Source: Chitinophaga pinensis
GTDB lineage: Bacteria; Bacteroidota; Bacteroidia; UBA4408
Length of the DNA stretch: 64,000 nucleotides
Assembly (NCBI GenBank): GCA_945872355.1
Contig: CAMBZU010000006.1
Span: 1-64,000, forward strand
Direction: 5' to 3'
Every line of letters begins with the position of its first letter. Positions within the stretch are counted from its first letter, which is position 1. Made by a program: the position numbers and the translations under genes. The notes beneath the pieces were generated by a model. It made no database searches. It was not told where the DNA came from and was given only the letters and a program-made list of their open reading frames with translations. This document shows positions 991 to 17,992 of the stretch, piece by piece.

Positions 991-2997
991 TTACTTCCTT
1001 TTATAGATATACTTTTGATTCCCATCATTATACTCTATTGTATTGTCATTAATAATTTTAAAATCAACAGGCACACCATTAAAGTTCGCAACGATATTAT
1101 TTTTCAATACTTGATAACTTGAAACACTATTTAAGTTATAGGTTTCATTAATCCACTTTAATTCATTTTTTTTTGCAAATTCAATGTATTCTTTTTCGTC
1201 TAACTTTCCCTCGTGAAAACGATAATATTTATCAGATAAATTCGATTTATTTACAACTGCTTTCTCTTTATCATAATACTTAGCCACAATTGTTGAAAGT
1301 TCTTCATCAGAACAAGTAAATAGTTGTTTCAAACTAAAAAGGACACTTCCAATCTCCAAGCCTTGATTTTTAAACGTGGCAATAGTTTCTTCAATTGTTT
1401 CTGCCCATTTACGAGAGAAATTATTATATTCTTCAATAGTTGAACGAATACTAACTTTATCAATGAATAGATTTAAAAATACAGTATCTTTTTTTAATAC
1501 TAATAATTCATCATTGATCATTTTATACTTAACTATCTTTTCGCAGGTTATTTTATTACTGGAGGAATTTAATTTATCAGATTTGATGATTGATCGAATA
1601 TAAAAATATTTCACTAAATTATTGTCCTTATTTACCATCATTAGCCCTCTAAAGCTATCTACTTGTATTTCTGGATTATTTATTAACAATATCTCGCAAA
1701 TATTTTCTATTAACCGGCCGCTATTTTTTATTCTCTCTAAAAACTGTTTTTTATTTTTTTCATATCCAGGTAATTCTAATATATTTAAATACTCCAAATA
1801 AGGGTCAACATATTCATCTCCATAAGCAAAATATGATTCATAATTAATTAATGCTTTAGCATAATTGCCTTTTCTTCTATCTGCAACAGCATTCGACAAA
1901 TACTGGGCTCTATTTGATGGTTTGCTAAAATAAATATTTTCTGAATTATTAAACGCTTCACTTAAGTCATCTAGGTTATTCTCGACAGAAGTAACTCTTC
2001 CCGCAACTAAACCTAAATCCTTTCTAAAAAAAAACAGTGAAATACTTATTGAGGCAATTAATAAAAAAGTTGTAAATATTAGTTTCGTGTTTAATCGAGT
2101 GTGTTTTTTTAATTCAGTGCTTAACGTTTTTAATTCTGCGATGTCCAATTTTACAGCTTCATATTCTACCTTAATATTTGAAAGGTATGTTTGGAGCGTT
2201 TTTTCATCTACATTATAATAAATTGATGGATTAACAATTGTCCTGCCGTTATCGTGTGCGATTTGTATTCTAGATATAATTTCACCATAGTATAAGTTAA
2301 GCAATTCAATTTGAGCGTCTGACACTTTTTTATTGTGGGCGATGTTATTTCTTACTATTCGGATATCATTTAAAAAAAATCTGAGAGAATTAATTTTGTT
2401 TTTTGCATAACTTAACCCTTCATTCTGATCAAAAACATTATCGTACGATGTGAAAAACTTTTTATCTAAAAAGAGAGCCGAAAGTTCATTAAAAGATGTG
2501 CCACTTAATATTCCTGTATCATCTGCATTTTTTAACCAATTTTGAATAATTTCTGATTTAAATAACTCTTTAAGCTTTTCAAGAATCCCTTGTCTACCTC
2601 CATTGTGTTCTGTTACTAAAGATCTTATTATTAATTCAAATGCACGGGTTTGTTTAAGAGCAATTGATTCATTGGATTTTAAGGTAATAATTTTAACATC
2701 TAAATCTAAATTAATATTATTACCAACTATACCTAATAAAATGATTACTCGCAACAAGGCTATTTGATAAACATTACCTGTTTCATCTTTGTTTTTTTCA
2801 TAGAATTTAAAACTTGATTCTAATTCAAAAAACAATGGAGCATTTATTCCTAATTTATCACAAATACCTTTTTCTGAATATTTATATTTTAACTTTTTAA
2901 AATCTTCAATTGGATTATTGGTAATATCTTGACTATTTGAATTAATATATTTATTAAGGTCACTTATTTTTTCATAAATCTCTGTATGTATCTTCAT
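991..2997 (-). CDS. Hypothetical membrane-anchored protein; HEPN-like RNNIAH motif, one central TM helix, TPR-like C-terminal part
   Basis: 668-aa ORF; LNDIRIVRNNIAHNKK followed by LIFTTFLLIASISISLFFF hydrophobic segment. Confidence 0.8.
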   Translation of the reverse strand: MKIHTEIYEKISDLNKYINSNSQDITNNPIEDFKKLKYKYSEKGICDKLGINAPLFFELESSFKFYEKNKDETGNVYQIALLRVIILLGIVGNNINLDLDVKIITLKSNESIALKQTRAFELIIRSLVTEHNGGRQGILEKLKELFKSEIIQNWLKNADDTGILSGTSFNELSALFLDKKFFTSYDNVFDQNEGLSYAKNKINSLRFFLNDIRIVRNNIAHNKKVSDAQIELLNLYYGEIISRIQIAHDNGRTIVNPSIYYNVDEKTLQTYLSNIKVEYEAVKLDIAELKTLSTELKKHTRLNTKLIFTTFLLIASISISLFFFRKDLGLVAGRVTSVENNLDDLSEAFNNSENIYFSKPSNRAQYLSNAVADRRKGNYAKALINYESYFAYGDEYVDPYLEYLNILELPGYEKNKKQFLERIKNSGRLIENICEILLINNPEIQVDSFRGLMMVNKDNNLVKYFYIRSIIKSDKLNSSSNKITCEKIVKYKMINDELLVLKKDTVFLNLFIDKVSIRSTIEEYNNFSRKWAETIEETIATFKNQGLEIGSVLFSLKQLFTCSDEELSTIVAKYYDKEKAVVNKSNLSDKYYRFHEGKLDEKEYIEFAKKNELKWINETYNLNSVSSYQVLKNNIVANFNGVPVDFKIINDNTIEYNDGNQKYIYKRK

Positions 2998-6904: not shown

Positions 6905-7345
6905 TTAAATAATTTCCCTTCTTTTTAATTCATTTTCCACCCCTTCTCTCATCGCTTTTCTAATTTCACTGCTGGACATTTCTGATTGAATTTCATCATT
7001 ATAATGAATTGCTTTTTCAATGTTATCAAAGACACTAATTTCGCTTTCATCATCATCTTTTGAACGTAAAACTTCTGCGTAGTTTTCCTTTTCAATTGCG
7101 ATGAAGGTATTTACCCAATTAATACTATTTTGAGGGGCTTCGTTTTTTATTAAAATTGCCAATTCAAAATACAGTTCTTTTTCAATAATGATATCCTTCT
7201 CAGATAAATGAAGAAATAAATCACAACATTTATCTAAATATTCTAAATTTCTTATCGTTAGATAATCTGAAATATTATTTTCAAATCTTCTATTTCCTAA
7301 AGTAATTGTAACTACATTATTATTGTATATTATTTCGCAAGTCAT
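6905..7345 (-). CDS. Small hypothetical protein, candidate partner of the upstream STAND NTPase
   Basis: 146-aa ORF starting 11 nt after the stop of the 1380-aa ORF, same strand. Confidence 0.7.
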   Translation of the reverse strand: MTCEIIYNNNVVTITLGNRRFENNISDYLTIRNLEYLDKCCDLFLHLSEKDIIIEKELYFELAILIKNEAPQNSINWVNTFIAIEKENYAEVLRSKDDDESEISVFDNIEKAIHYNDEIQSEMSSSEIRKAMREGVENELKRREII

Positions 7346-7356
7346 AATTTAACTTT

Positions 7357-10300
7357 TTATATTAATTTGCACCCCATCCATCCTGGAATCTCACTCTCTT
7401 TGCCCAACTCCTTTGAAAGCCTCAGCGCATTTGCTATCGACTCTTGTTTAGCTTTATCTTTTATACCAACATCATCTTTTCTTATTTCTGCAGATTGAAT
7501 AAAATAATCTAAAGCATTCTTCAGTTCATTTAATGCTTCATAGCACTGAGCTATTTGAAATGCAATTCCTCCTTTTTTTAAAATTGTATATGCTCTTTGA
7601 TAATATTCTAATGCTTCATGATAATTATATAAAGCTATGTAACAATTTCCAATGTTAAAATTTGAAGTTGCCACATCCTCATTATCTGCACCTAAATTTT
7701 TTAATTGAATAAAGAGTATTTTCTGATAGTTAATTATAGCATTTTCAAAATCACTATTTAAATAATAATATCTTCCCAGATTGTAGATGATTGAATTAAC
7801 ATATTCATGTGATGAATCAAAAACACTTAAATAAATATCAAGAGCTTTGTTACAATATTCTATACACTTATTAAAATCATTAAGTTTTTCATAAATTGAA
7901 GCATAATTTGAATATAAATATGCTAGTTCTAATTTGGCAGAGTCATTTTGTATTGCCAATAATATTTTTTCACTTTGATTAAAAAAATTTAATGCACTCT
8001 CAATTTCATTCTTGGCAAAGTAAACAAGTCCAATTTTTCGCAATGTTAATGAGTTATTTGATTCTAATTTATTCGATTCCTGTAAGTATATTAATGCTTT
8101 TTCAAATTCTTCCTGTTCATGGTATATTGAACCTATATTAGCGATAGTAACTGCACTTCCAATTCCATTTATAGATTTATATATAGTGTTAGCTTTCAAA
8201 TAATAATTTATTGCTTCATTTAATTCTCTAAAATGATGGTAAGCAACACCTAAATTGTTATACGCATTTTTCAAATACTGATTATTCTCGCCATACTTTT
8301 TTAAGGATAACTCTATACATTTTTTAAAGCAATCAATAGCTTCTTCAAATTGAGTTTGCGCTATGTAATTCCAACCAAGACTAGTATAAATATTACTAAA
8401 ACCGATGTGATTTATTGGTAAAATATTTAGTGCAATGTCTAAACTTTGATTTAATATTTCGTTTGATTTATCAAATCTGTTCAATAGCCTCATTAATTCA
8501 GCATAATTTGAATTAACTTGAATAAAAAAAAGGTTATGTGTGCCAAGAAGTTTCTTTGTTTTTATTATTAATTCTTGAAATAGTTTTTCAGACTCAATGT
8601 ATTCCCTTTTTTCTAATTTACAACACGCAACACTATTTTGAAAACTTAATTTTTGTTTTTCAAAATCCCATCCTGTTTTATCCTTAATTAAATTTAATCC
8701 TTTAGTAAAAATATCTTCTGCATTTTTTATTCCACCAGAAATTAAATAGTAAGCATCTCCAACATATTCATATAATTTACAATTAGAATAATTGTCCAAT
8801 TTTATATTTGAAATATCTTTTTGAATGTATTCTTCATAAAGTTTAATTGCAGTTCGCGAATCGATTTCTGCTAATTGTTCAATAATTAGTGTTAGAAATT
8901 TAAATTTGTTTTCACGAGAATATTCTTCAAATGATTTTTTAGTTATAACTGTATTTAATTCAACAAGTCTGTCATTTGAATTTAAGGACTCATGACAGGA
9001 AATTCTCAGAAAATCTTGATTGATTGATTCTTTAATATCTGATGAAAGGATTTTATTGTCAAATTGTGTCACTATATCATGTAAATCATTTTTCTTGATT
9101 TCCGCCCGTAAGAATTCTAATATTATCCAATCATTCTTCGTTGGATTCTCTAACAACTTTTCAACTGTAGTATCAACCCCTTGAGATTTCAAAAAATACA
9201 ACAGAGGTGTTACACACAATTCTAACTTTTCTTCTCCTTCATCAATTAATTTTGCAATCAAACCTATTTTCCCTTCTAAGGCTTGTTCACACAAAAAAGA
9301 TTCAATGGCCGATTTTTGTAGTTTGGTTCCGTTATTTAGAATTTCACCTATTCCATCAGAGGTGAGTGTAGAATTTTGTTGGTTTAATTTTGTGCCTAAT
9401 AAATACAATAAAAGTCCTTCTAAGGTGAAACTAACATATACAGTTAAATCTTTTACGTATCTACTTATCCAACCTAAAGTCAATAAGCGTAAATAAGGAG
9501 CACTTGAATTATCATTTAGAAAATAAGATTGTAGGTTTTTATTGTTCAATACATCATCTAACAACAATTCATTTTCGCCTGATTCCCAAACAACATCCGC
9601 TAACAAGTTCATAAAATTTTGTTCTTCATTGGAGAAGGTTGCAAACCAATCTTTCCAAACGTGCAGGTGTTTAGTTCCTTTTTTAGGTAGGTTTTTGCCT
9701 TTATATGTTTCTAAGAATATCCGCAGAATCAATGGGTTGTTAATTTGCAGATACAATCCTCTATCAAAAGTGGCAATGTCATTAAAGGAAAATAAAGGTT
9801 TAAATCTATTTCTATCATTAGCAACATAACTTCCCCAAGCACTCTCCATTTCCTTCATGTCTAATGGCGTTAACCAAAAGGCAAACCCACTTAAACTTTT
9901 TACATGGTCTTTGTTTTCACCATAAATGTATTGCAATTGGTTCTCAGAAAGAACGTAGCGGTCTATATCTATTTTTGTATTGGCTCTGCTAGTAATAATA
10001 AACTTAAGACTTCCTGGTTCAAAGACTTTAGAAATTTCAAGAATTTCTTGCCATATGTTTTCCGCATAGGATGATTCATTTAAACCATCTATTAAAATAA
10101 AAAATGGATCTTCTTGCGTTCCTGCCAATGAAATATATTGGGCTATGTCCAAAGAGAAATCCATATTCAACTGGTAGCATAATTCCTCTTTCAAAGATTT
10201 TTTCTCCATGCGTGATGCACGAATAAACAAACTCATTAAATTGCGTTCCGCATATTGCCGTTGCATTTCAACCAACAAATTGGTTTTACCACTTCCGGCC

Positions 10301-11499
10301 TCTGCAGCAATAAAAAAGACATTCGCACGCGCACCAATCCACTCGCGCAATTTTATTTCCATTTCTTCCCGATGCTGGTAAATGCCTTCGATTACTTTTT
10401 TTTCATTGAGCAATGATTTTAACATCAATTGATTTTCTTCGGCTATTCGTGCTGCAAAAACATCTTTGGTATAAGTTTCAGGAGTAAATGGAATTTCTTT
10501 TTGTTTATCGTGTAACAATAATTGAAGTCGTTCAAGCAGCTTGCCAGAGGTTTGTTTGGTTATGCCTTCTGGACTAAAAAAAGTAATGGTTTTGCCGTTA
10601 TTAGACTCATAAGACATGATATTTGGTTTTTCATTGCGGTCTATGGCTAATTCTCCAGGAATGATAAAAAATGGAATGATTGGCATGCTTGTATTAGCAT
10701 CACTACTATAGATTGAAACATTTGAATCTATGTTGATTTTGTTTTCAAATGGTTTTATTTCGATTCCTTGTAGGGAGTAATAAACACCTGATTCTTGTTT
10801 CAACATGGGAAACTTCTCACAAAAAGTAAGTTGCTCCAGTAATGTTCTAAAAATGGGGAAATAGTCATTCCATAACTTTTCTGAAGTAATTGAATTCAAA
10901 GTCAATCCATGACCTAAATAACGATTTCTAAAATTAATCAGCATTCCAATTCCGGTATCTTCTTGCTTTATGTACCTGGTTTCTCCACCATTGTAGGAAT
11001 CAACCACTTCAATTTCTCCTTTATACATTTTTCTTTTTTTTCCTGTTTCAACGGTTTCGTGATATTTCACTAAATCGGGACAGAAGAAAGTATGGTTTTG
11101 AGTTTTTAAATAGGTTAAACATTCTCTAGTAAATGCATTCCAAGATCCGAAAGAAGGCTGTGCTAAATTTTGCGAAAATAAATCTACAATCTTCCGTTCT
11201 TTGAAAGGACTGTTGAAGAACTCAGAGGCTGTAAGCAATCCTAAATATTTAAGATAATTTAAAAAGGTATCTCTAAAATAATTCAACCGTTGTGGTGCAT
11301 TTTTTTCTAATAAAGTTTGCTGGAGAGGATAGGCAATGACGTAGGGTAAAGAATTGATTAGATTTAAATCAGTTTCATTAAAAGATAAAACTTCTGATAA
11401 CGGATTATCACAAAAGGGACAATCCATGTCTACGGGATAAACTTTTCCCTTTTTAATCTCAGGGGCAATGCAATCGGTATTTTTACATACAAAGCTCAT
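7357..11499 (-). CDS. Zinc-ribbon / RNxxxxxH-motif / STAND-type NTPase / TPR-repeat protein (candidate defence or signalling NTPase)
   Basis: N-terminal CKNTDC...CPFC; FRNRYLGHG; Walker A FFIAAEAGSGKTNLL; Walker B PFFILIDGLNE; KFIITSRAN sensor; long C-terminal array of TPRs (e.g. YLKNAYNNLGVAYHHFRELNEAINYYLKA). Confidence 0.9.
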   Translation of the reverse strand: MSFVCKNTDCIAPEIKKGKVYPVDMDCPFCDNPLSEVLSFNETDLNLINSLPYVIAYPLQQTLLEKNAPQRLNYFRDTFLNYLKYLGLLTASEFFNSPFKERKIVDLFSQNLAQPSFGSWNAFTRECLTYLKTQNHTFFCPDLVKYHETVETGKKRKMYKGEIEVVDSYNGGETRYIKQEDTGIGMLINFRNRYLGHGLTLNSITSEKLWNDYFPIFRTLLEQLTFCEKFPMLKQESGVYYSLQGIEIKPFENKINIDSNVSIYSSDANTSMPIIPFFIIPGELAIDRNEKPNIMSYESNNGKTITFFSPEGITKQTSGKLLERLQLLLHDKQKEIPFTPETYTKDVFAARIAEENQLMLKSLLNEKKVIEGIYQHREEMEIKLREWIGARANVFFIAAEAGSGKTNLLVEMQRQYAERNLMSLFIRASRMEKKSLKEELCYQLNMDFSLDIAQYISLAGTQEDPFFILIDGLNESSYAENIWQEILEISKVFEPGSLKFIITSRANTKIDIDRYVLSENQLQYIYGENKDHVKSLSGFAFWLTPLDMKEMESAWGSYVANDRNRFKPLFSFNDIATFDRGLYLQINNPLILRIFLETYKGKNLPKKGTKHLHVWKDWFATFSNEEQNFMNLLADVVWESGENELLLDDVLNNKNLQSYFLNDNSSAPYLRLLTLGWISRYVKDLTVYVSFTLEGLLLYLLGTKLNQQNSTLTSDGIGEILNNGTKLQKSAIESFLCEQALEGKIGLIAKLIDEGEEKLELCVTPLLYFLKSQGVDTTVEKLLENPTKNDWIILEFLRAEIKKNDLHDIVTQFDNKILSSDIKESINQDFLRISCHESLNSNDRLVELNTVITKKSFEEYSRENKFKFLTLIIEQLAEIDSRTAIKLYEEYIQKDISNIKLDNYSNCKLYEYVGDAYYLISGGIKNAEDIFTKGLNLIKDKTGWDFEKQKLSFQNSVACCKLEKREYIESEKLFQELIIKTKKLLGTHNLFFIQVNSNYAELMRLLNRFDKSNEILNQSLDIALNILPINHIGFSNIYTSLGWNYIAQTQFEEAIDCFKKCIELSLKKYGENNQYLKNAYNNLGVAYHHFRELNEAINYYLKANTIYKSINGIGSAVTIANIGSIYHEQEEFEKALIYLQESNKLESNNSLTLRKIGLVYFAKNEIESALNFFNQSEKILLAIQNDSAKLELAYLYSNYASIYEKLNDFNKCIEYCNKALDIYLSVFDSSHEYVNSIIYNLGRYYYLNSDFENAIINYQKILFIQLKNLGADNEDVATSNFNIGNCYIALYNYHEALEYYQRAYTILKKGGIAFQIAQCYEALNELKNALDYFIQSAEIRKDDVGIKDKAKQESIANALRLSKELGKESEIPGWMGCKLI

Positions 11500-11834: not shown

Positions 11835-12296
11835 CTAAAAAAAATTATTCATTGTTTTAGCAAGAGCTTCGAGTTCTGCCTCAAAACCTTTCTTAATAGC
11901 AAATAATGCAGCATCATCTGAGAACATATCTACATAATATTCCTTTTGCTTTTTTGCTTTTTTGGGTCTGCATTCTAAGTCAAATTTTATTCTAATGGCT
12001 TTATTTTTTTCGTAAGGTTCATTCAGTAGCTTAAATGAAATGTTTGGTTCAATAAATGTTAAAAATCTATATTGGGGCTCTTGCCCTAAGCTCAGCTTAT
12101 CAAACCAACCAATTATTTCTTGAACTTCATTGATTGTCAAGAATGAATCAATAACCTCCCATCTCCCTTTATTACATTCGACCTTAAGCTGCACCATAAG
12201 CCAATTAAGGTCGGTTTTATAGTTAGCGGTTTCTGGAGATTCAAAACCTATTAAATTTAAGTGTACAGATTGTTTCGCGCTAAATGGAATTATCAT
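11835..12296 (-). CDS. WapI-like immunity family protein
   Basis: 153 aa; DLNWLMVQLKVECNKGRWEVIDSFLTINEVQEIIGWFDKL pattern resembles WapI-type immunity proteins. Confidence 0.6.
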   Translation of the reverse strand: MIIPFSAKQSVHLNLIGFESPETANYKTDLNWLMVQLKVECNKGRWEVIDSFLTINEVQEIIGWFDKLSLGQEPQYRFLTFIEPNISFKLLNEPYEKNKAIRIKFDLECRPKKAKKQKEYYVDMFSDDAALFAIKKGFEAELEALAKTMNNFF

Positions 12297-16343: not shown

Positions 16344-16663
16344 ATTGTGCTTTAATAGTAAAATGAATATTTTACGAAAATAAGTAAAAAACTACAAATA
16401 GTGATTTTTCTTATTTAGATAATCAAATAAGTTACCATTAAAATATAGAATTTTATTTACCTGACTTTCTCAATTAGCCCACTTAAAAGTAATAGTGCTC
16501 AGTAAACTAGAAACTCGGCTTGGTGTTTTTTAATCTTTAGAGCTCCGCTCGGCTTCATGAAATAATGAACAAGAAACAAGGAATGATAAATTATTAAACT
16601 TTGAAGTATTTTTTTATTGAGCCAACAACTTTCAATATCAACTTCTCCTACCTACTTTTAAGT

Positions 16664-16717
16664 GCATAAAAAAAGCCCCAAATAGGGGCTTTAATAAACT
16701 TTCGTGGTCCTGGAGGG
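16664..16717. repeat. 54-bp direct repeat copy 1 (terminator plus tRNA-Arg 3' end)
   Basis: GCATAAAAAAAGCCCCAAATAGGGGCTTTAATAAACTTTCGTGGTCCTGGAGGG, identical to 16765-16818. Confidence 0.95.
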
Positions 16718-16764
16718 CGTTCCCGACAGCGGTCGGGACAGGCTTCCCCTCCCTCCAATGATTA

Positions 16765-16818
16765 GCATAAAAAAAGCCCCAAATAGGGGCTTTAATAAAC
16801 TTTCGTGGTCCTGGAGGG
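16765..16818. repeat. 54-bp direct repeat copy 2, overlapping the 3' end of tRNA-Arg
   Basis: Identical 54 bp to 16664-16717, offset 101 bp. Confidence 0.95.
16769..16793 (-). terminator. Rho-independent terminator of tRNA-Arg
   Basis: On the minus strand AAAGCCCC-TATTT-GGGGCTTT followed by T tract; duplicated at 16668-16692. Confidence 0.8.
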
Positions 16819-16879
16819 AGTCGAACCCCCAACCTTCTGATCCGTAGTCAGATGCTCTATCCAATTAAGCTACAGAACC
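16806..16879 (-). tRNA. tRNA-Arg (anticodon ACG)
   Basis: GGTTCTGTAGCTTAATTGGATAGAGCATCTGACTACGGATCAGAAGGTTGGGGGTTCGACTCCCTCCAGGACCA folds as cloverleaf: 7-bp acceptor GGTTCTG/CAGGACC (one T-G pair), anticodon loop CTACGGA, T-loop TTCGACT. Confidence 0.96.
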
Positions 16880-16924: not shown

Positions 16925-17992
16925 TTACTCGCCTTCTTGCTTGTTTACGGGTGCCATTTGCTGCTGCAGTACTTGCCTATCGCGCATTCTACCATTGATG
17001 AGCGCGGTGTACGACCTGGCTTTTTTATTGCCAAAATCGCTGTAGGCTTTTTTACTCCATTCTAAGGCAATATCAAAGTTGCCTCGTGTTTCACAAAAAA
17101 CTGCCATGTTGTAGCATGCGCGTCCTGCAATCTTTTTTTCTTTGTTTAAGGCTTCCTTTTTCCAAATTTCTGCGGCACCTTCCCAGTCGTTTATCTTTAC
17201 TTTTTTACCCGCCTTTTTCAATTCATCGCTTCCTTTTGTATAGTATTGTCTGCTTTCTGTAACCCACAATGGTGTTATTCTGCGGCCATAACGCTGCCCA
17301 GTATGAAATCCAGTTCTAAACAAGGCATCATACTTTGATGGAAGATTAGCTAGTGCCTCATTTTGAGTTAGGCCCTGTCCAGTAAAAGCCAAAAAATCGG
17401 TGTAGCGAAATTCATCTGAAATCACCTCACTCTTGTTGTTATAAATTCTCCATCCTACGGTGATGTTCATTCTACTATCTGCTCTTACCCCGGGCATATC
17501 TTTATACACATCTTTTGCCACGCGGGTTCTTATGGTAATTGGTGTAAAATTTACGCGCGAGTCTGAATCAAAGGCTTCTAAAGCGATTAAGGCATCTAGG
17601 TTATTTCTTTGACATACCTCATTAATTTTAGCTCGGCTCAATGGTTCTGGAAATTGTCCTGTTCCGCTGCCTTTAAGCATATCGATATCTAAACGTATTA
17701 ACTTAAAACGGGGCGATTGACTCATCACATCTATCATACCATCAACAGTGGCCTCTGAACCTCTTCTATCTGTGCCTATGCCCTCGCCTGTTAAAACGCC
17801 TTCAATAATGTTCCATGCCTTATTATCTTTGGTAGGATAGGTGCGATTGATAACACCTACGTTGATGATATTATCTTCTACGGTTATTTCTGCTGGCTTT
17901 AACACTTGCAGACTCGTACTGGAAGTACAAGCGCCTAAAAGTATTGCTAATAAAGGGATGCAGAGTGCAAGATGTAAAAAAATCTTTTTCAT
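16925..17992 (-). CDS. DUF6340-type lipoprotein
   Basis: LLGACTSS lipobox; VLKPAEITVEDNIINVGVINRTYP...GEGIGTDRRGSEATVDGM pattern; C-terminal TPR-like. Confidence 0.8.
   Translation of the reverse strand: MKKIFLHLALCIPLLAILLGACTSSTSLQVLKPAEITVEDNIINVGVINRTYPTKDNKAWNIIEGVLTGEGIGTDRRGSEATVDGMIDVMSQSPRFKLIRLDIDMLKGSGTGQFPEPLSRAKINEVCQRNNLDALIALEAFDSDSRVNFTPITIRTRVAKDVYKDMPGVRADSRMNITVGWRIYNNKSEVISDEFRYTDFLAFTGQGLTQNEALANLPSKYDALFRTGFHTGQRYGRRITPLWVTESRQYYTKGSDELKKAGKKVKINDWEGAAEIWKKEALNKEKKIAGRACYNMAVFCETRGNFDIALEWSKKAYSDFGNKKARSYTALINGRMRDRQVLQQQMAPVNKQEGE

Follow-up and report, generated by a model that had tools for sequence, protein, structure and literature searches.

What task is served by a bacterial protein that joins a zinc ribbon, a HEPN-like domain, a STAND nucleoside triphosphatase (NTPase) and a TPR array in one chain, and does it act alone or together with the small gene behind it? 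The question is raised by a locus of Chitinophaga pinensis (assembly GCA_945872355.1, contig CAMBZU010000006.1), of which positions 1 to 64,000, hereafter called the window, were analysed; the genes concerned are those of the 1380-residue protein P0001 and of its 146-residue neighbour P0002. In our assessment, the balance of sequence, structure models and analogy tips slightly towards P0001 being a stand-alone, NLR-like conflict sensor, most likely antiphage, with a HEPN ribonuclease (RNase) as effector. Built like an immune receptor, it would probably sense an intruder by its fast-changing repeat tail and answer with a presumed RNA-cutting front end.

Architecture of P0001

From the N-terminus, P0001 is composed of the zinc ribbon, the HEPN-like domain, a beta-rich linker, the STAND NTPase, a helical region with an NPL motif, the TPR array and a C-terminal cap. 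The features of the locus are as follows:

7357 to 11499, minus strand: P0001, the zinc ribbon, HEPN-like, STAND NTPase and TPR protein, recognised from the list of open reading frames (ORFs), its motifs and a family of relatives
11410 to 11487, minus strand: zinc ribbon CX4C-X16-CX2C, residues 5-30, a putative exchangeable adaptor slot
10834 to 11376, minus strand: HEPN-like helical domain, residues 42-222, predicted from a model of residues 39-245 and a paralogue's match to PF18735
10909 to 10929, minus strand: RNRYLGH motif (Rx5H), R191 to H197
9820 to 10374, minus strand: STAND NTPase core, residues 376-560, with a Pfam NPHP3_N match
10282 to 10305, minus strand: Walker A AEAGSGKT, residues 399-406, A399 to T406 invariant in seven family members
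10075 to 10104, minus strand: Walker B FFILIDGLNE, residues 466-475, with D471, N474 and E475 invariant
9100 to 9819, minus strand: post-NTPase helical region, residues 561-800, with NNPLILR (a NACHT-like NPL motif), P589 and L590 invariant, 49-58% identity
7480 to 8793, minus strand: TPR array, about residues 903-1340, matching TPR_12 (E=7.7e-45) in several stretches
6905 to 7345, minus strand: P0002, a downstream orphan gene, co-directional with P0001 after a gap of 11 nucleotides (nt), with coding-like codon use and no relative

A preliminary description of the locus, based on the letters and ORFs, had named the two same-strand frames and the principal motifs, and nearly all of this was borne out. 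Both frames are found where they had been placed; the ribbon is present as C5/C10 (CX4C) and C27/C30 (CX2C), the P-loop with K405 and FILIDGLNE are found, and the roughly ten or more TPRs amount to about 10, with matches to TPR families at E values down to 8e-45. The RNRYLGHG motif is likewise present, its spacing being Rx5H (RNx4H) rather than the RNx5H originally given. These motifs exceed chance, since the four cysteines are kept in six of the seven family members and the RN..GHG, GSGKT and DGxNE residues are invariant among members.

The NTPase fits the STAND class, because ORC/Cdc6, CED-4 (E=4.2e-4), Apaf-1 (E=3.2e-3) and the plant NLR RPP1 are among the best PDB matches of an AlphaFold model of residues 1-700. 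The Pfam family NPHP3_N passes its curated cut-off (26.6 bits versus 24.8), and NACHT is matched weakly (17.4 bits, E=0.004, under the cut-off of 26.7). The catalytic residues of both Walker motifs are intact, with GSGKT and D..NE invariant in all seven members.

Upstream of the NTPase, the domain carrying the RNRYLGH motif is likely HEPN-like. Nine such domains were aligned, some from the P0001 family and others from paralogues encoded nearby; they are 15-61% identical to the copy in the window, and their sole invariant residues are R, N, H and G of RN..GHG. In an AlphaFold 2 model of residues 39-245 (mean predicted local distance difference test score, pLDDT, of 81), the motif occupies the end of a long helix (183-198), and a loop and a further helix (203-223) follow. 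By definition, HEPN domains are helical bundles in which an Rx4-6H motif with a polar residue after R lies at the end of helix 3, ahead of a loop and helix 4 (PMC3710099); the window domain has such a motif, located at a helix end. A possible link to an established HEPN family is offered by a paralogous domain in a 1461-residue neighbour of one relative (L003:5667-6278), which matches PF18735 (HEPN_RiboL-PSP) at E=3.4e-6 and 27.5 bits against a cut-off of 28.4, and which is homologous to the window domain (hhalign 4.6e-20). Compared directly with PF18735 members, the window domain gives an hhalign P of 0.004, versus 0.41 for reversed sequences.

The preliminary description had proposed the N-terminal region as the effector. 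An effector-like role is supported for the HEPN-like part, and for the ribbon that of an exchangeable adaptor is the better reading, because it is kept in six of seven members and is replaced in the relative L006 by a SAM domain (Pfam SAM_1, E=1.2e-8).

Family, sequence turnover and genomic setting

P0001 belongs to a small, sporadic family of Bacteroidota: six relatives are 55-62% identical to it across 700-830 N-terminal residues, and a seventh is more distant. Five of them (L002 to L006), whose best segments within residues 1-830 show 55-59% identity, come from a scan of 84,980 species genomes, which rests on short peptide patterns and gives a lower bound of their number. Two more were found in a class-wide sample of 395 genomes, namely the strong relative L008/L013 at 56% and the more distant L009/L014 at 41%. 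Strong matches occur in three of these 395 genomes, its own genome counted, in one of eight genomes of the taxonomic family (the source genome itself) and, at E<=1e-15, in one of 396 genomes of a phylum sample; checks within the source genome were single searches. Mobile spread was considered as well, and no close relative was found on plasmids, phages or viral contigs.

The engine of P0001 is conserved, and its TPR sensor is variable. Identity of the relatives to the window protein reaches 58-64% in the HEPN-like region and 62-65% in the NTPase, versus 18-26% in residues 801-1290. The TPR array turns over fast, as neighbouring units of 42 residues can be up to 100% identical in L006 and up to 93% in L002. 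The guanine-plus-cytosine (GC) content is poorer in the C-terminal part of P0001 (0.262 versus 0.336), as it is in L004, L005 and L008.

P0001 lies in a variable region (1 to 16.7 kb of the window; GC 0.304 versus 0.339 in the rest) that ends at a tRNA gene:

16805 to 16879, minus strand: tRNA-Arg(ACG), bounding the variable region; the congener G002 retains it together with its right-hand neighbour gene
16642 to 16821, plus strand: two direct copies (16642-16720 and 16743-16821), attachment-site-like, 79 nt at 87% identity with a spacing of 101, including the tRNA-Arg 3' end

DNA homology to G002 ends at 16743, and the next 16 kb of that genome contain none of the window genes between 991 and 16343. 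In the congeners G001 and G003, UvrB and the gene at 16925-17992 are retained, but none of the variable-region genes occurs within about 17 kb of them. The P0001 region is absent at the corresponding site in three congeners. The repeat looks like an old attachment site and the region is likely a genomic island; this status is not proven, because the contig begins at window base 1, leaving the other boundary out of view, and no integrase was noticed among the ORFs of the window.

Two further genes of this region were noted. One (991-2997, minus strand) encodes a second HEPN protein, which is of the STY4199 type (PF18729, E=1.6e-29) and has a long C-terminal part and what looks like a transmembrane segment; the other (11835-12296, minus strand), just upstream of P0001, encodes a WapI-like immunity protein (PF24716, E=8.9e-24) with no obvious toxin adjoining.

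Proposed function and competing explanations

For the conflict sensor reading, the following sequence of events is envisaged. Binding of a trigger by the C-terminal TPR array would free the NPHP3/NACHT-like STAND ATPase to bind ATP and to oligomerise; oligomerisation would join the N-terminal HEPN-like domains into dimeric, metal-independent RNases (R191/N192/H197), which would cut host and/or phage RNA, bringing growth to a stop. The zinc ribbon, or the SAM domain of the one relative, may be an interchangeable adaptor by which the sensor attaches to a partner or scaffold. A conflict-type gene is supported by the patchy distribution, the variable tRNA-linked region and the fast-evolving repeats. 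Accordingly worded, the earlier proposal of an uncharacterised STAND defence system retains its sensor, its effector-like N-terminal region, here read as HEPN-like, and its conflict-type character, and loses its second gene.

Several results weigh against this reading. The model of residues 1-700 is of modest confidence (pLDDT 58), and no HEPN model of Pfam matched the N-terminal domain of P0001 itself. Foldseek was tried as proof of the HEPN fold, and the domain model gave no match below E 0.5 in PDB or BFVD, 5yep, which we take to be a HEPN-MNT toxin-antitoxin complex, appearing only at E=3.1; the domain is therefore called HEPN-like, and the HEPN fold is not proven. The PADLOC search returned no relevant model, its sole match being a weak one to GajB (E=0.0076) at the P-loop; membership in Avs was rejected, as neither an Avs nor another known-defence profile matched. 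Finally, several relatives adjoin envelope-type genes (DUF4407, OmpA, transglutaminase-like, DUF350) and not classical defence islands.

The architecture as such has precedents. An in silico survey of 2013 already listed fusions of HEPN, STAND ATPase and TPRs within the Swt1-like HEPN group (Npun_F6454, MED222_16016 and Desac_1927; Anantharaman et al., PMC3710099), and judging from its domain architecture P0001 is probably a variant of them: a HEPN-like domain with a conserved Rx4-6H, a STAND ATPase and TPRs are held in common in one bacterial protein, while P0001 adds the N-terminal zinc ribbon (or SAM domain). No characterised member of this HEPN-STAND-TPR type was found in the literature searched. 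With the antiphage bNACHT and Avs proteins, P0001 shares the succession of N-terminal effector (presumed in P0001), STAND NTPase and C-terminal repeat or sensor region; it differs in its NACHT score below cut-off, the missing Avs match, the HEPN-like N-terminus and the TPR sensor. An exchangeable N-terminal adaptor, a STAND core and repeats are also found in the MoxR-vWA conflict systems with EAD adaptors (Kaur et al. 2020, PMC7159879; 2021, PMC8195603), and the L006 relative resembles these further in adjoining MoxR and vWA genes; the window, however, contains neither gene, and the Walker motifs of P0001 are intact, unlike those of iSTAND. Metazoan NPHP3 likewise combines an NPHP3_N NTPase with TPRs, and animal HEPN-NACHT receptors (DZIP3 and CXorf38 groups, PMC3710099) join HEPN to NACHT and a zinc ribbon, much as P0001 appears to do, yet these similarities are distant and do not suggest orthology. 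New here are the P0001 family itself and its neighbourhoods, the exchange of its adaptor, and the difference measured between engine and sensor. The family offers a clean test case: a single gene whose product has predicted residues for catalysis and ATPase function and a fast-diversifying TPR sensor, with a natural exchange of ribbon and SAM domain; should P0001 protect against phage, animal-like HEPN-NACHT receptors and bacterial NLR-like defence would be joined in one mechanism.

Among the alternatives, an improbable but coherent one holds that the HEPN-like domain is a non-catalytic coupling module, which recruits other HEPN proteins by like-to-like contacts and leaves the damage to these or to a host partner. 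The recruits would be the membrane-anchored HEPN proteins of the relatives and, in the window, the STY4199-type protein described above. Directly upstream of the family member, L002, L003, L005 and L006 encode another protein with an RN..HG motif, in L002/L003 a HEPN-like STAND protein and in L005 and L006 a membrane protein with RNKTRGHG; furthermore, adaptor domains shared by core and effector genes of one operon have been described (Kaur et al., PMC7159879), and the second HEPN gene of the window lies 3.9 kb from P0001. A pure adaptor, however, would not need the predicted catalytic R, N and H, which are invariant; three unrelated genes and P0002 separate P0001 from that second gene; and the membrane HEPN-like domains of L005 and L006, tried as homologues of the window domain, are not detectably related to it beyond the motif, which alone aligns (hhalign P=0.09). 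Slightly less probable still is a reading in which several proteins form an NLR network with HEPN domains as its common currency. Here a STAND-TPR sensor, addressed by an interchangeable tag (zinc ribbon or SAM domain), would be coupled via its HEPN-like domain to separately encoded, partly membrane-bound HEPN effectors of the locus.

As unlikely as the coupling module is a role outside defence, with P0001 as a STAND signalling protein of an envelope or stress response. Its partner would be a recurrent Bacteroidota cluster found near several relatives, which encodes DUF4407, a second membrane protein, OmpA, a transglutaminase-like membrane protein, DUF350, a hotdog thioesterase and a 450-/185-residue pair. 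This cluster adjoins the gene wholly or partly in L003, L004 and L013, and with its edge in L005; six of the seven relatives have the 450-residue gene nearby, and a diverged copy of the DUF4407-OmpA-transglutaminase-DUF350 cluster is present in the source genome on contig C32. There, however, it is unlinked to P0001, and the 450-residue gene was searched for in that genome and is missing, by which an obligatory dependence on the cluster was rejected. Moreover, cluster genes occur without the sensor in L059 and L060, as does the 450-residue gene in L058 and L061; L002, L006 and L014 lack most of the cluster; and patchy presence suits conflict genes better.

This leaves P0002. Its codon use is coding-like in its own frame only, and none of 2000 shuffles of its region contained an ORF as long, so that it looks like a real gene. 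Searches by tblastn found no relative in the 395 class genomes, viral contigs, plasmids or phages, and comparison with Pfam, NCBIfam, PHROGs, PADLOC and PDB gave no match worth keeping; roles as antitoxin, toxin or regulator were rejected for want of a homologue in all of these. The two-gene cassette of the preliminary description falls, because P0002 is not conserved next to P0001 homologues: when co-occurrence was checked, the position downstream of the relatives held other genes or none and never P0002, the very outcome that description had named as contrary to its proposal. By these comparisons, P0001 and P0002 are not a conserved unit. A toxin-antitoxin or otherwise regulated pair, in which the small protein restrains or helps the large one, is the least probable reading: strand, spacing, codon use and a GC content as low as that of the TPR part speak for it, and a 186-residue gene about 50 nt downstream of the relative in L003 to L005 would allow for a variable small partner, but these genes are unrelated to P0002, which has no homologue anywhere searched, and L006, L008/L013 and L014 have no small downstream gene.

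Further genes near the relatives

The SAM-bearing relative (L006:9794-14008), with its TPR units of up to 100% identity, is followed by LRR, MoxR (AAA_5) and vWA (DUF2201) genes; in L013, a convergent gene lies downstream. A MoxR and vWA setting has been described for conflict systems (PMC7159879); such genes are found neither in the window nor near the other relatives. The upstream membrane proteins (L006:5273-9790, two tandem copies; L005:1564-3966) carry their RNKTRGHG motif in a soluble tail and belong to no Pfam family. The envelope-type cluster, in the order DUF4407, membrane protein, OmpA, transglutaminase-like protein and DUF350, is located at L013:7-7257, L004:958-6468 and L065:7919-13677. 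The conserved 450-residue gene (L004:16372-17721, L014:3034-4386) is usually paired with the 185-residue gene (no Pfam family) and occurs in seven of the 395 class genomes. In the distant relative (L014:8350-16525), two HEPN-like domains stand in tandem, and more TPR arrays are encoded by a run of genes behind it, which gives the impression of a sensor part that became detached and was then copied several times.

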